Part shown: positions 4,721 through 18,699 of the stretch, piece by piece
Position numbering within the stretch: the first letter of the stretch is position 1
Layout: each line of letters begins with the position of its first letter
Source: a virus
DNA length: 26,216 bases
Strand: one strand, 5' to 3'
Virus record (IMG/VR): IMGVR_UViG_3300006305_000016
Coordinates: 1 to 26,216 of that record
Notes under the pieces: generated by a model
What the model saw: the letters and a program-made list of their open reading frames with translations, nothing else
What the model was told of the DNA's origin: nothing
Database searches by the model: none
Position numbers and translations under genes: made by a program

Positions 4721-5008
4721 CTATTCTCCTTTGTATCCGTCAATGTGTTTCCATTGACTATCATATATGTAAGATTTTAAATCATCATATCCACCGATGT
4801 GTTTGTTCTTTTCATTCCATATTTGTGGAACAGTTTTGAACCCTTGTTTTTTAAAATCTTCTCTTATATCATCATTTGATACATTGTGTTCTTCATAATC
4901 TATGTTAAAGTTTTCCATAAGTTTTTTAGCTTTATCACAATAAACACAAGTATCTGCTGTAATGATTCTGTATTTAACTCTTTTTTTTATGTAATTATCT
5001 AAGTTCAT
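4721..5008 (-). CDS. grx: Glutaredoxin
   Basis: A 95-residue thioredoxin-fold redox protein. It has the dithiol active site CVYC at 21-24, the cis-proline loop TVPQIW (59-64) and the glutathione-binding GGYDDL (72-77). It is likely to reduce ribonucleotide reductase or other disulfides in the cytoplasm during phage nucleotide synthesis. The ATG overlaps the gp55 stop codon (ATGA), so expression is coupled to the late sigma factor. Glutaredoxins near gp55 and gp47 are usual in marine T4-like phages. The tail after residue 80 is a short extension. Confidence 0.93.
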   Translation of the reverse strand: MNLDNYIKKRVKYRIITADTCVYCDKAKKLMENFNIDYEEHNVSNDDIREDFKKQGFKTVPQIWNEKNKHIGGYDDLKSYIYDSQWKHIDGYKGE

Positions 5009-5550
5009 TTTTCCTCATAAAAATTTTCTAAACTCTTTTTAGTTTCTTTTTTCTTAGAACTATTTGCTTTGTAAACTTCTTGGCCATCTTGTGGTAACAT
5101 ATTCTTTTGTAAATAATCCATATATTGATTACCATAGTTTGTATCATCTAAGGGATTCTGGTCAAAGGTAGGCATCATATTCTTTTCTATTATTTTATGT
5201 TTAGTGTGTGTTTGTTTTTTTTCTTTTTGTATTCTACGAATAAATGCATAGTATATTATTTGTGTAAAATATGAAAAGGGGTTCTTTGATTTTTCTGGGT
5301 CAAAATTTTTTACATATTGTAGACAGTTTTCTATACCATCACCTATCATCTCTTCTTTAAATGTATAGTTTATAAAGTTAGGTCTAAATGATAAGTGTTG
5401 TGCAATCTTTAAAAAACACTCACCAATATAATCTGTTACTGGTGGAGCTTCTTCTCCTAAAGATTCTGCATCTTTTACTTTTTCTTTCCACTCTGTGATT
5501 GCCTCTAAGAATTGTTTATTGTTAACATAATGTTTTGCATTTGCAGCCAA
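5005..5550 (-). CDS. 55: Late-transcription sigma factor gp55
   Basis: Phage sigma factor that directs host RNA polymerase to TATAAATA late promoters, helped by the sliding clamp and gp33 (not in this window). The 181-residue protein aligns by eye with T4 gp55 (185 residues). Shared stretches include YVNNKQFLEAITEWK at the N-terminus, then FRPNFINYTFKEEMIGDGIENCLQYVKNFD and the NPFSYFTQIIYYAFIRRIQKEKK segment, the sigma region 2 core. The start is TTG at 5550, seven bases after an AAGGA site; no ATG upstream keeps the frame. It is the first gene after a 121-base gap with a sigma70-type promoter, as expected for a gene needed before late expression. The late boxes elsewhere in this window are its likely targets. 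Confidence 0.94.
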   Translation of the reverse strand: MAANAKHYVNNKQFLEAITEWKEKVKDAESLGEEAPPVTDYIGECFLKIAQHLSFRPNFINYTFKEEMIGDGIENCLQYVKNFDPEKSKNPFSYFTQIIYYAFIRRIQKEKKQTHTKHKIIEKNMMPTFDQNPLDDTNYGNQYMDYLQKNMLPQDGQEVYKANSSKKKETKKSLENFYEEK

Positions 5551-5571
5551 TATATTTTCCTTGTATTCATT

Positions 5572-5599
5572 ACTTTAACATATTTTATTTTATTGTCAA
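5572..5599 (-). promoter_or_regulatory. Sigma70-type promoter for the gp55 operon
   Basis: Minus-strand TTGACA (5599-5594), a 16-base spacer and TAAAGT (5577-5572, four of six matches). The predicted transcript starts near 5565 and keeps the AAGGA ribosome site at 5561-5557 ahead of the TTG start. This would be a middle or early promoter for gp55, glutaredoxin, thermonuclease, gp47 and pstS. The weak -10 box lowers confidence. Confidence 0.55.
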
Positions 5600-5623
5600 C
5601 CATATAAAAAAATAAATTACCTA

Positions 5624-5651
5624 TTGACAAAATATTTTTGGGTGTTATACT
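5624..5651 (+). promoter_or_regulatory. Plus-strand sigma70-type promoter, antisense to the next gene
   Basis: TTGACA (5624-5629), a 16-base spacer and TATACT (5646-5651): six of six and five of six matches. It points into the 3' end of the minus-strand gene at 5672-6115. No plausible plus-strand coding sequence follows, so if active it makes an antisense or non-coding RNA. It could also be a chance match in AT-rich DNA. Confidence 0.45.
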
Positions 5652-5671
5652 TATTCTTGTATTGATTGAAA

Positions 5672-6115
5672 TTAGTGTTTAGTTTCATCATAATCATAAG
5701 GTACATTTTGATATTCATCAATTAATTCTTCCATATCGGATTCTTCTAATGTAGTTTTCTGTTCTTTGACTTCAATATTGTCGTCATTTACTTTTAATTC
5801 ATCACCGTCTTTATTTCTATATCGTTCAGCATCATCATATCTTTTTAATATATATTCATAATATTTACATAACCCAATGTTTACTTCATAGTGTAGAACG
5901 ACTTGAGTTTTTTCTATTGCAAATACTTTATCTTTAGTAAATGTAGCCCACTTACGAAGTGCAAGATTTTCTTCATATTTACCATCTTTTCCCATAGTAT
6001 TTACCGTACACATCTTCATAGGATATCCTACTTTAAAATATCCATTTTCAGCATTGTGTAACTTACAAATGATTTCATCACCATTTGATAGTTTCATTAT
6101 TCGGTAACTACTCAT
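5672..6115 (-). CDS. Conserved phage protein with possible small-barrel (Sm-like) N-terminus
   Basis: A 147-residue hydrophilic protein. The first 70 residues (IMKLSNGDEIICKL, then GYFKVGYPMKMCTV and LALRKWATF) have the strand pattern G-D-E-I-I-C-K of a small beta barrel similar to LSm/Hfq-type folds. The second half is acidic and probably disordered (DDNIEVKEQ, ESDMEELIDEY). Proteins of this style occur near uvsW in marine T4-like phages without known function. The ATG at 6115 lies eight bases inside the preceding gene. It is the last gene of the uvsY-led chain. The fold suggestion is weak. Confidence 0.7.
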   Translation of the reverse strand: MSSYRIMKLSNGDEIICKLHNAENGYFKVGYPMKMCTVNTMGKDGKYEENLALRKWATFTKDKVFAIEKTQVVLHYEVNIGLCKYYEYILKRYDDAERYRNKDGDELKVNDDNIEVKEQKTTLEESDMEELIDEYQNVPYDYDETKH

Positions 6116-6359
6116 TCCACAACCTTAACTTTTTATCCATTGGTTTCCATTCAACTGGGGGTTCATCTAACTTAGCTCTATTTAAATTTACATTTTCCCA
6201 GAAGTGTTCAAAAACCTCTTCTTTTGTTTCCATTATATTAAATTCAAATTCTTCATACATCTTATCAATTCTTTTTTTTATCTTTTCTTTATTATACTCA
6301 ATCTTTCTTTTATAGTCATACATTTCTTTAAATTTTTCATAATCCTTTTCATTTATCAT
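6108..6359 (-). CDS. Small unknown protein downstream of uvsW
   Basis: An 83-residue, highly charged protein. The first 45 residues are almost entirely helical in composition (KDYEKFKEMYDYKRKIEYNK region), a likely coiled coil. The C-terminus contains EPPVEWKPMDKKLRLW. It has no signal peptide or membrane segment. The ATG overlaps the uvsW stop codon (ATGA), and its own end overlaps the next gene by eight bases, so it is translated in a coupled chain. I do not recognise the family. Confidence 0.65.
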   Translation of the reverse strand: MINEKDYEKFKEMYDYKRKIEYNKEKIKKRIDKMYEEFEFNIMETKEEVFEHFWENVNLNRAKLDEPPVEWKPMDKKLRLWNE

Positions 6360-7795
6360 AATTTTATCCTATGTATTGTATAATCAAATTGTTCTTCGTT
6401 GTATATATTTATTCTTTCCATAAAATGACGAAGTGTAAAGTTCTGTCTATTTTTATATGAAAAGTCATCTGCTATGTCAAATAATTTACACTCTGTTTTA
6501 TTATCACCTAATCTCAAACCTCTACCAATAGATTGTAAAACTCTAATCTTACTTTTAGATGGTGATGAGAAAATTATATTATGTAAGTTTTTAATATTAA
6601 TACCAGTAGAGAAAGTACCATATGATGCAACAATGATTGCATCTTTAGATTTTTCAGTTATAGCTCTAATCTCTTCTCTAGTCAATGCATCAACACCACC
6701 ACTTACAAAGAAAACTTTTCTGTCTTTGTAAGTATTTGTTATCAAATCATATAAAGGTTTTCCGTGTTTTTCTACATATTGATATAATACTAATGTATTA
6801 CCTTTAAGTGGACTAACTAATTTATTTACAAAATTTAATCTTTGTCTATGATTTACAATGTAATCTATTTCATCTGCGTACTTTAAATCTTTTACTATCT
6901 TGCACTCATTTTCACTATATCCTAAAATTAGACTATCTATTTTAAGATTAGATAATGTTTTCTTTTCTATCAATTCTTTTGTGGATATAACTTTATTTGT
7001 AGTACCAAACAATCCTTCTAAAACTAATTTATGTGTTTGTAAATCATCTAATGTACCAGTAAGTCCAAAACGATACTTGCATAAATGTAGTTTAGTCATT
7101 ATAGATGTGAGTGATTTTGCTTTGAATAGATGGGCTTCATCACCTATGACACAACCAAACTGTTCAAAATATTTTTTAGGAAACTTATGTAAAGATTGCC
7201 AAGTAGATATCACAACATCTTTTTCTATCTTTTTACTATGACCAGAATATACTTTTTGAATATATGATTCTAACCAACCATAGTCTAAGAAATCACTAGA
7301 CATCTGTTCTACTAAACTTGTTGTGGGTACGAGTATCAATGTTTTAAGATTCTTTGAATGACACCATCTTGTAAGACCATAAATGATTAACGATTTACCA
7401 GATGCAGTAGGACAAACAAAAAGACCACGACATTTTCTGGCACCATAAAGAATACTAGAAATCTGATAATCACGAGCTTTGTATGGAACTTTAAGGTGTT
7501 TAATAAATGACTTAATAGTTGATTCATCAATGTCCTCTGGTCTTGTATTGAAATCTAATTCGTATCTAATGTCATTTCGTTTACAGAACTCTCTGATGTA
7601 TGGTAACAATCCCAAATAGATTTGTCCAGTAGCAACTGAGAATAATCGTATTTTTCCATCCCATACTTTGTTTCTATAACTGGGCATAAATCTTGCACCA
7701 GGCACTTCAAAGGTAAAATACTCTGAGAGTTCTCTTGCAATATGTGGTTCTGTTTCAATTCGTATGTATACTTCATTTTTCTTCTCTATTTTCAT
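6356..7795 (-). CDS. uvsW: UvsW-type recombination and R-loop helicase
   Basis: Superfamily 2 helicase that in T4 unwinds R-loops and branched recombination intermediates and shifts replication from origin-driven to recombination-driven. It is 479 residues long (T4 UvsW 503). The N-terminal double-stranded-DNA-binding domain includes ARFMPSYRNKVWDGKIRLF (34-52). The Q-like RDYQ (108-111) is followed by Walker A PTASGKS (129-135), DEAH box (219-222), the LTGTLDD motif III region, and motif VI QSIGRGLR in the second RecA lobe. All motifs are intact. The start overlaps the end of the upstream oxygenase gene by 23 bases. It lies between the oxygenases and gp55, as in related marine phages. Confidence 0.96.
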   Translation of the reverse strand: MKIEKKNEVYIRIETEPHIARELSEYFTFEVPGARFMPSYRNKVWDGKIRLFSVATGQIYLGLLPYIREFCKRNDIRYELDFNTRPEDIDESTIKSFIKHLKVPYKARDYQISSILYGARKCRGLFVCPTASGKSLIIYGLTRWCHSKNLKTLILVPTTSLVEQMSSDFLDYGWLESYIQKVYSGHSKKIEKDVVISTWQSLHKFPKKYFEQFGCVIGDEAHLFKAKSLTSIMTKLHLCKYRFGLTGTLDDLQTHKLVLEGLFGTTNKVISTKELIEKKTLSNLKIDSLILGYSENECKIVKDLKYADEIDYIVNHRQRLNFVNKLVSPLKGNTLVLYQYVEKHGKPLYDLITNTYKDRKVFFVSGGVDALTREEIRAITEKSKDAIIVASYGTFSTGINIKNLHNIIFSSPSKSKIRVLQSIGRGLRLGDNKTECKLFDIADDFSYKNRQNFTLRHFMERINIYNEEQFDYTIHRIKL

Positions 7796-16686: not shown

Positions 16687-18699
16687 TTACCCTCCTATCT
16701 CTGTAAACGCAACACCAGTTCGTACAGCGACAAAGTTAAGAGTGATAAAGTTGATAGACCTTGTTGGTTTGACAAAAATGTCTGCAACAAATTCGTTTCT
16801 ATCAATTACTTCACCAGTGTTATTAGATTCATCTGCAACTACTTTAAAGTCAGTAATACCTCTTCGTCCTTGAATCTCTCTCAAGAAAGGTTCTACTAAG
16901 TTTTTAAACTGAGCTCTTGTGAATTCATCATTGAACTCAAATAGTTGGAACTTAGCTGCAGTTGCGATTGCCTTTTCAAGAATAATGAATAGTCTTCTAA
17001 CATTTATTCTGTCAAACGCACTTGGTTTTGCAAGAGCAGTCTTATCACCAAATAACACAGTACCTTGGCCAGGAAATGAGTTGACTGGATTAATTCTTGC
17101 TTTATATAGTGTATCTCTTTGGTCTTTGTTAGGTTCGTATGCAAGTTTAACTGCACCTCTAATTTGACCTCTGGTAAAACCAGCAGGAGAGAAAAACGCA
17201 TCTGCAACAGATTCAGTAAACGCAGTTACACCAGCGATATCACCATTTAATGGTACATAACGATATACATCGTTAAATCTATCATATTGGTATTTGTAAC
17301 CACTATCAAAAACTGCAAATGATGTACTTGGAAGTAAATCAAAAAAGTTCTTGACATTTGTAGTTTGTGTGTTAGAATCTGCAACACCTACAACATCACT
17401 TCTTTCTGGAGAAATAAAGACTAATGCATCTTTTCTTTTTTCCACAATAGTTACTAAGTTTGTTGCAAGAGTTGAAGTTGCTTTTGCAGCCATAATTAGG
17501 TTTACATCAACTGCTTCACCGTCATCAAATCTTGCGTATGAAGTAAGTTGTTCACCGTCTGTAACAGCATAATCGTCTGTTCCATTTGCAAGAGTAGACC
17601 TATCTACATTTTCTACACCAGTTGAAAGTTTGTTGAAAAACTTTGAACCTTGTACTGATAAATCAGATGAAAGAGGTTGACCCCAGTCACCAGATGCATC
17701 AATAGCTGCAGTTGGGTGGTCTCCCCAATATACAAATTTAGAATCTCTGTAAATTACATCTGGATAATAATTTGAATTACCTTGAGGTGTAGTTGCTTCT
17801 GGATGTTTTGATACAAATGCAAATGTTTCTAGTACAGAGTTTAATCTCTCACCAGCAACATCGTTATCAAAACCAGTTTGTCTACCAGATGAATCATATA
17901 CAACTATGTGTATTTCATCATCACCAACACCTCTTGCAGATGCAAATTCAGATGTGCCTGGAGCAGTATCAAATAAATCTGAAAATCTCCAGTATCTTTT
18001 AACATAAGAATCGTCTGCTAAGTCTGCGATTAATCCACTACCAGCAGGGTCATCTAACTGTCTTATTGTAATTGTTTCAGCAGATGTGTCAACTGCCGTA
18101 ATTTCGTATTTTTGTGCTTCGTGTCCAGTTGCAAAAACTGTGCCACCAGCATCTGAATAAAATTCTATAACTTCACCTACTGCAAAATCAGCTGCATCAA
18201 AAGCGTCCATTGTAATTGTTGCTTCAGCTGCACTTGCACTTGCATCGTTAACTTGTTTGTTTGACATTTCTGAAAAGTTGTTTTTATCACAAATGTCTAT
18301 TTTAATTCCGTTTGCGTGTATACCAGCCGTTCTTGCTGACCAAGTACCGTGAGTACCTTGTCCATCTGCAAAAGACTCTTGATAATGCAAAGTGTTTCTG
18401 ATTAAAATACCAGAACCACCAGAAGATGCATTTTTCAATGCGCTTTCAGTTCTTACAACTCTTAGTGAATTTGAATACTGTAAAAAGTTTGCAGCTGTGA
18501 AAAAATACTCAAAATTGTTTGCATTTGGTTTACCAAACACTTCAACGAGTTGTTTTTCGGAACTGATACTTGTTATTTCACTTACAGGCCCTTTTTCAAA
18601 GGGGCCACAAACAGCACCAATAGTTGTAGAAACGGCAGGAACAATATTCGTTAGGTCAACTTCTTTGACTTCTACGCCTGGAGAAACTTGAAATCCCAT
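16687..18699 (-). CDS. 18: Contractile tail sheath protein gp18
   Basis: Forms the contractile sheath. It is 670 residues long (T4 659). The N-terminus QVSPGVEVKEVDLTNIVPAVSTTIGAVCGPFEKGP is diagnostic of gp18. The conserved C-terminal core carries LRGQIRGAVKLAYEPNKDQRDTLYKARINPV-type sequence, FPGQGTVLFGDKTAL, FDRINVRRLFIILEKAI and FVADIFVKPTRSINFITLNFVAVRTG. The central part (about residues 110-370) is the more variable, surface-facing protrusion domain. A late promoter 41 bases upstream and an AAGGAG site fit high late expression. Confidence 0.98.
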   Translation of the reverse strand: MGFQVSPGVEVKEVDLTNIVPAVSTTIGAVCGPFEKGPVSEITSISSEKQLVEVFGKPNANNFEYFFTAANFLQYSNSLRVVRTESALKNASSGGSGILIRNTLHYQESFADGQGTHGTWSARTAGIHANGIKIDICDKNNFSEMSNKQVNDASASAAEATITMDAFDAADFAVGEVIEFYSDAGGTVFATGHEAQKYEITAVDTSAETITIRQLDDPAGSGLIADLADDSYVKRYWRFSDLFDTAPGTSEFASARGVGDDEIHIVVYDSSGRQTGFDNDVAGERLNSVLETFAFVSKHPEATTPQGNSNYYPDVIYRDSKFVYWGDHPTAAIDASGDWGQPLSSDLSVQGSKFFNKLSTGVENVDRSTLANGTDDYAVTDGEQLTSYARFDDGEAVDVNLIMAAKATSTLATNLVTIVEKRKDALVFISPERSDVVGVADSNTQTTNVKNFFDLLPSTSFAVFDSGYKYQYDRFNDVYRYVPLNGDIAGVTAFTESVADAFFSPAGFTRGQIRGAVKLAYEPNKDQRDTLYKARINPVNSFPGQGTVLFGDKTALAKPSAFDRINVRRLFIILEKAIATAAKFQLFEFNDEFTRAQFKNLVEPFLREIQGRRGITDFKVVADESNNTGEVIDRNEFVADIFVKPTRSINFITLNFVAVRTGVAFTEIGG

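Follow-up and report, generated by a model that had tools for sequence, protein, structure and literature searches.

What might a strong host-type promoter do when it points into the 3′ end of a gene on the opposite strand? The question arises in a window of 26,216 nt (the whole stretch of DNA analysed here, positions 1 to 26,216 of IMG/VR record IMGVR_UViG_3300006305_000016), which belongs to a T4-like marine phage similar to HTVC008M and Mosig. All genes around the site lie on the minus strand, in the order uvsW helicase (6356–7795; Pfam UvsW_N and helicase domains), a small ORF, a 147-aa gene of the phrog_471 family (5672–6115), the late sigma factor gp55 (5005–5550; phrog_234, E 1.7e-61) and a thioredoxin-domain gene, so that uvsW lies upstream of the 147-aa gene in the same direction. 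ORFs further downstream resemble, judged by eye, a nuclease and gp47.

Two divergent promoters behind the Sm-like gene

Two TTGACA boxes stand back to back in the spacer between the 147-aa gene and gp55, one on the minus strand (5594–5599) and one on the plus strand (5624–5629), exactly as the first-pass annotation had described them. The minus-strand box, followed after 16 nt by the −10 box TAAAGT (5572–5577), forms the promoter of gp55, which starts with a TTG codon at 5550 and has AAGGA at 5558–5562. The plus-strand box is followed, again after 16 nt, by TATACT (5646–5651) with an extended −10 TG at 5643–5644, all read directly from the sequence; this is a sigma-70 pairing of TTGACA with a TATAAT-like hexamer 16–18 nt away. 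As the same annotation had proposed, this promoter aims at the 3′ end of the upstream minus-strand gene and has no plus-strand gene to serve. The two −35 boxes make an inverted repeat without strand (5593–5630; arms 5593–5599 and 5624–5630), whose exact match of 7 nt comprises little beyond the boxes themselves. Family-wide alignment places the predicted antisense start at G5659, with a 13-nt leader (5659–5671, plus strand) ahead of the 147-aa gene; the RNA body would then cover the 3′ end of that gene on the plus strand (5672–5800, the end coordinate being a guess).

Taken alone, the plus-strand promoter of the window is good though not decisive. It is the best of 34 promoter-like sites between 4000 and 8000 (11 of 12 matches), and 1% of 100 shuffles of the spacer region equal it; its significance is moderate because such sites are common by chance in this stretch, where 25.9 are expected. 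Across the full 26 kb only six sites reach 9.9 or more, and this promoter is the only intergenic one on the plus strand. Another strong promoter-like site, TTGACA-16-TAGAAT (17351–17378, plus strand), lies inside the minus-strand ORF 16687–18699.

The product of 5672–6115 is shown by profile and structure model to have a predicted Sm fold. The family profile matches PDB 3by7 (E 2.5e-15) and TIP60; the model of the window protein (mean pLDDT 78.9) matches 3by7 with a Foldseek probability of 1.00 and a TM-score by target of 0.86, and its next matches are spliceosomal Sm/LSm chains. In Pfam, the window protein alone scores 15.2, under the cut-off of 29.4, and its S-RSM4 orthologue passes at 31.1. 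Since profile and model both give Sm/LSm, the label methylamine utilization carried by this family is doubtful. In many cyanophages the gene bears that label as T4-GC 139, and by profile and fold it is Sm/LSm-like (the window and orthologues in L081–L085 and L265–L274); most members of the pelagiphage type have K-T-[ILV]-H at their C terminus.

Conservation and gene linkage of the antisense promoter

Conservation was assessed at 246 gp55 loci, drawn from three viral-contig scans (80 loci each), five named phages and the window, and grouped at about 85% identity into 59 clusters; promoter scoring demanded A at place 2 and T at place 6 of the −10 box. In 52 of the 59 cluster representatives, at least 95% of dinucleotide shuffles score below the best antisense promoter, and in 50 at least 99% do, compared with 49 and 41 for the sense gp55 promoter; many antisense sites carry a perfect TTGACA-16/17-TATAAT. 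One representative, L145, failed through a mis-called gp55 start, and its antisense box is visible on inspection. Of the 58 representatives for which an upstream ORF is listed (L236 has none), 55 have an upstream gene of one family, the Sm-like one. The antisense promoter passes the shuffle test in 52 of these 55 clusters and in none of the four others (L059, L176, L184, L236).

A second set was built around the Sm-like gene, which is present at 267 of 272 loci, some of them from the same contig. At 261 of the 267, an antisense promoter with a score of 9.4 or more lies no further than 110 nt from the Sm-like stop codon. Grouped by Sm-like identity, it occurs in 157/161 groups at 90%, 97/100 at 70% and 39/42 at 50%, against 0, 1 and 2 of 42 in three antisense control windows (the end of the Sm-like gene, 300–410 nt downstream and 240–350 nt upstream); scored in the sense direction, where the next gene often has its promoter, the same interval behind the stop codon gives 20/42. 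Spacers are 16 or 17 nt in all 261 promoters, as a sigma-70 promoter demands, though 15–18 nt were allowed, and the −10 box lies 15–69 nt past the stop codon (median 31; 97 groups at 70% identity). No antisense promoter was found in P-TIM40 and the L069 group, and Melnitz keeps the −10 box and start motif with a weak −35. The 46-nt spacer behind the Sm-like gene of P-TIM40 (L272) holds a near-perfect AT-rich palindrome and neither an antisense nor a gp55 TTGACA promoter.

Within the lineage of the window, the antisense −35 box, −10 box and 13-nt leader are identical in all 25 members, which differ at Sm-like third positions (diversity 0.123) and in gp55 (0.129); the sense −35 and −10 boxes are likewise invariant, and variation (0.08) occurs in the 7-nt stretch that separates the antisense −10 box from the start. 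The plus-strand −10 box, on whose conservation the first-pass annotation had staked its reading, is invariant within this lineage, and such a promoter is retained in 39 of the 42 groups that share less than 50% Sm-like identity, which strongly supports the proposal of an antisense promoter. Being conserved across lineages, the promoter stands well above chance, and we have high confidence that this predicted element is real.

To which gene it belongs can be read from the 18 records with another gene upstream of gp55. Two are short and hold no Sm-like gene; the other 16, mostly from few clades and so not independent, hold one nearby, and in 16/16 the antisense promoter stays behind the Sm-like stop codon, its −10 box 27–47 nt away, when a gene stands between the Sm-like gene and gp55. 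Twelve of the 16 have no sense promoter of at least 9.4 alongside. S-SSM6a keeps the antisense promoter though the gene upstream of its Sm-like gene differs from uvsW. Among eleven isolate genomes searched, the promoter lies behind the Sm-like orthologue in nine. Nine of the eleven also hold Sm-like paralogues (profile score of at least 8 bits), 22 ORFs in all and sometimes side by side, and 0/22 have an antisense promoter at a distance of up to 110 nt from the stop codon (best score 8.6). The paralogue-bearing genomes (L286–L304) are Mosig, S-RSM4, P-HM1, Syn9, S-SM2, S-SSM6a, S-SM1, S-ShM2 and P-TIM40. Comparative gene order shows that the predicted promoter belongs to the Sm-like gene rather than to gp55. 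The first-pass view of a site next to the late sigma gene gives way here, and a divergent promoter serving only to control gp55 is ruled out by the 16 separated records.

The putative antisense RNA and its alternatives

Our preferred reading, to which we assign a probability of about one half, is that the promoter yields a cis-antisense RNA directed at the 3′ end of the Sm-like transcript and acting in the manner of GadY. The strong host-type (sigma-70) promoter behind the Sm-like stop codon would fire backwards into the gene, and the first dozens of bases of the RNA would anneal to the last codons of the Sm-like mRNA and to its 3′ untranslated region. The duplex there would probably set how the uvsW / Sm-like message is cut or stabilised, or how it is separated from the gp55 message downstream; such processing is proposed by analogy with GadY, which guides cleavage of a two-gene message and stabilises its first part. 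The layout is that of GadY, with a promoter behind a gene, directed into its 3′ end, and a co-directed gene downstream; transcription, the RNA end and the action of the RNA are what we infer. Host-like promoters in Syn9 are said, from the RNA-seq of Doron (2016), to drive middle genes, in which case both promoters would be of the middle phase. We found no title, abstract or passage describing this promoter; the Syn9 RNA-seq and two antisense papers outside the search may contain the start.

Features of the predicted RNA point to a cis-acting rather than a structured molecule, since it lacks a notable fold, a coding signal and a general terminator. A TG within the allowed offset, present in 97/97 representatives, is the basis for the inferred start. 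Near +6 to +17 lies a loose GGTTCA/TTCAGAGA motif, with T at +9 in 82% of the 97 and GGGTTCA in 21/97; beyond about +17 the sequence is hardly conserved. The first 60 or 100 nt fold about as shuffles do (mean z −0.04 and −0.22), which speaks against a strongly folded RNA, and no structured RNA known to Rfam matches in the window at gathering scores. The longest ORF with a preceding Shine–Dalgarno sequence that starts no more than 90 nt past the plus-strand −10 box has 5 codons, and such ORFs of at least 20 aa occur downstream in 4/97 representatives and in 4/97 controls, leaving no excess that would indicate a hidden plus-strand gene. Antisense terminators at a score of 15 number 13 among the 97, against 10.5 in shuffles, which gives a general intrinsic terminator no support in number; clear examples occur in two groups only, and 10 of the 13 lie at clustered positions, 110–185 nt along. 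In L141 and L142, textbook intrinsic terminators are embedded in the Sm-like coding sequence about 165–173 nt in the antisense direction.

Synonymous change in the last 20 Sm-like codons falls to 0.53 and 0.39 of the gene mean (two bins; 0.73 and 1.09 for the gp55 counterpart), which hints at constraint on the Sm-like 3′ end and is suggestive only, as 245 of the 342 pairs come from one group; the last ten codons agree in 8 of 11 groups. A covarying palindrome lies around the antisense start, with stems of at least 4 bp in 19 of 50 representatives compared with a mean of 2.8 and a maximum of 8 in 2000 partner shuffles (two of 52 representatives, having no TGT, were dropped). It sits on the start in many pelagiphage-like groups (for example L082, L174, L215 and L228) and has a folding score of −1.31 on the antisense and −0.67 on the sense strand. 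Its left arm, however, lies upstream of the start, so that half of it would not be transcribed. The −35 dyad also folds better than shuffles, equally on both strands (z −1.0); as TTGACA boxes placed back to back necessarily pair, nothing is concluded from this about a sense-strand terminator doubling as the −35.

A trans-acting small RNA, partnering the Sm-like protein encoded opposite it in a compact chaperone-plus-RNA cassette, is a less likely alternative. It would explain why the promoter tracks this Sm-like gene and none of its paralogues, and the loosely conserved 5′ motif with its frequent T at +9 also speaks for it. However, a molecule of this kind sits poorly with the scant conservation past about +17 and with the lack of a stable fold and a general terminator, and RNA binding by this Sm-like family is itself only putative.

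We consider it rather unlikely that the RNA is a by-product of transcriptional interference, in which backward-moving polymerases would collide with uvsW / Sm-like transcription and insulate gp55 and the replication genes. The place of the site in Mosig, between uvsY, uvsW and structural genes on one side and gp55 and replication genes on the other, is consistent with such insulation, as is the poorly conserved RNA body. Against it, the 200 nt behind the Sm-like gene hold no sense promoter of at least 9.4 (7.0–8.9) in 12 of the 16 separated records; there the next gene follows closely and seems to depend on read-through. The invariant leader in the lineage of the window also counts against it.

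We give a similarly low weight to a coupled pair, in which the two promoters would be regulated as one unit, whether through a protein that binds the dyad and serves both, through contacts between polymerases on the same face of the helix, or through supercoiling. Helical phasing speaks for it: where both promoters score at least 9.4, which holds at only 176/267 loci, the gaps between the −35 boxes cluster near 5, 14, 24, 35, 45 and 53–58 bp. They follow the helical repeat in 26 groups below 50% identity (R(10.5) = 0.66, reached by 0 of 5000 draws in two null models) and in 65 groups at 70% (R(10.5) 0.59, likewise not reached in 5000 draws of two null models), though shared ancestry among groups lies outside these models and relatedness was handled by grouping only. 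The bases of the boxes also pair beyond shuffles (2.35 versus 1.53 of 5; n = 40; 0/2000). The phasing suggests a shared helix face for the two sites, yet in the window the dyad is just the −35 boxes, and the antisense promoter stands alone in 12 of the 16 separated records. Because it persists there without a strong sense promoter, the first-pass alternative of a dyad controlling both directions fails as a general explanation; the phasing leaves it some room.

In T4, the uvsY promoter is a replication origin, and the present AT-rich strong promoter lies near uvsY and uvsW, but a T4-style origin primed by its transcript is very improbable, as the promoter moves with the Sm-like gene and the GC skew of Mosig (3-kb steps) keeps its sign around the site at 21.3 kb; for Mosig an origin here is rejected. 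An annotated tmRNA gene occupies 111467–111805 in the genome of this pelagiphage (L248 11467–11805). Chance promoter-like sequence in AT-rich DNA, for which the local surplus of such sites would speak, is scarcely credible and, for the family as a whole, refuted by conservation (39/42 groups below 50% identity against 0–2 of 42 in antisense controls).

Meaning and comparison with known systems

It is easy to write off antisense promoters in phages as noise. Conservation in 39 of 42 groups, together with movement alongside one gene, is strong evidence of function, and conservation across so diverse a group of viruses suggests that phages make a regulatory antisense RNA at this place. Speculatively, marine T4-like phages (Kyanoviridae and relatives) may carry a built-in RNA-chaperone cassette, made up of an Hfq/Sm-like protein gene and an antisense small RNA from the promoter fixed behind its stop codon, in which the antisense RNA would control the Sm-like gene, could partner its product and would be tuned with the late switch by helical phasing to the late sigma promoter. 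The Sm-like gene, which many records label methylamine utilization, is carried by widespread sea viruses, and the site offers a precise, testable handle both on how marine T4-like phages regulate their messages after transcription and on the role of the protein.

Several known systems resemble parts of this arrangement. 3BY7, a cyanophage pentamer from which the designed cage TIP60 is built, has the same fold as the product of the Sm-like gene; the entries give no function. Antisense cover shields cyanophage messages, presumably those of the podovirus P-SSP7, from RNase E. In that system, phage antisense RNA likewise acts in cis on phage mRNA, but the cover is described as almost complete (PMC9692554), whereas here there is one defined, conserved promoter. 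In the T4-like cyanophage S-PM2, the antisense RNA cfrI lies 3′ of psbA (PMC5931967); here the site follows the Sm-like gene and occurs family-wide. Antisense transcription is also mentioned in Kyanoviridae in a further source (PMC10976474), and together these three sources show that cyanophages use antisense RNA or have been proposed to do so. The bidirectional promoters of Escherichia coli, too, launch divergent starts from one short stretch, but they share one symmetric −10 box (PMC12825309), in contrast to two promoters arranged −35 to −35 here, with separate −10 boxes at 5572–5577 and 5646–5651. The closest counterpart is GadY of E. coli, which is likewise made from a spacer promoter between genes of one message and is antisense to the 3′ end of the preceding gene, gadX (PMC7368042). 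The present site, known here from sequence alone, differs in belonging to a lytic phage family and in that the gene covered encodes an Sm-like protein.
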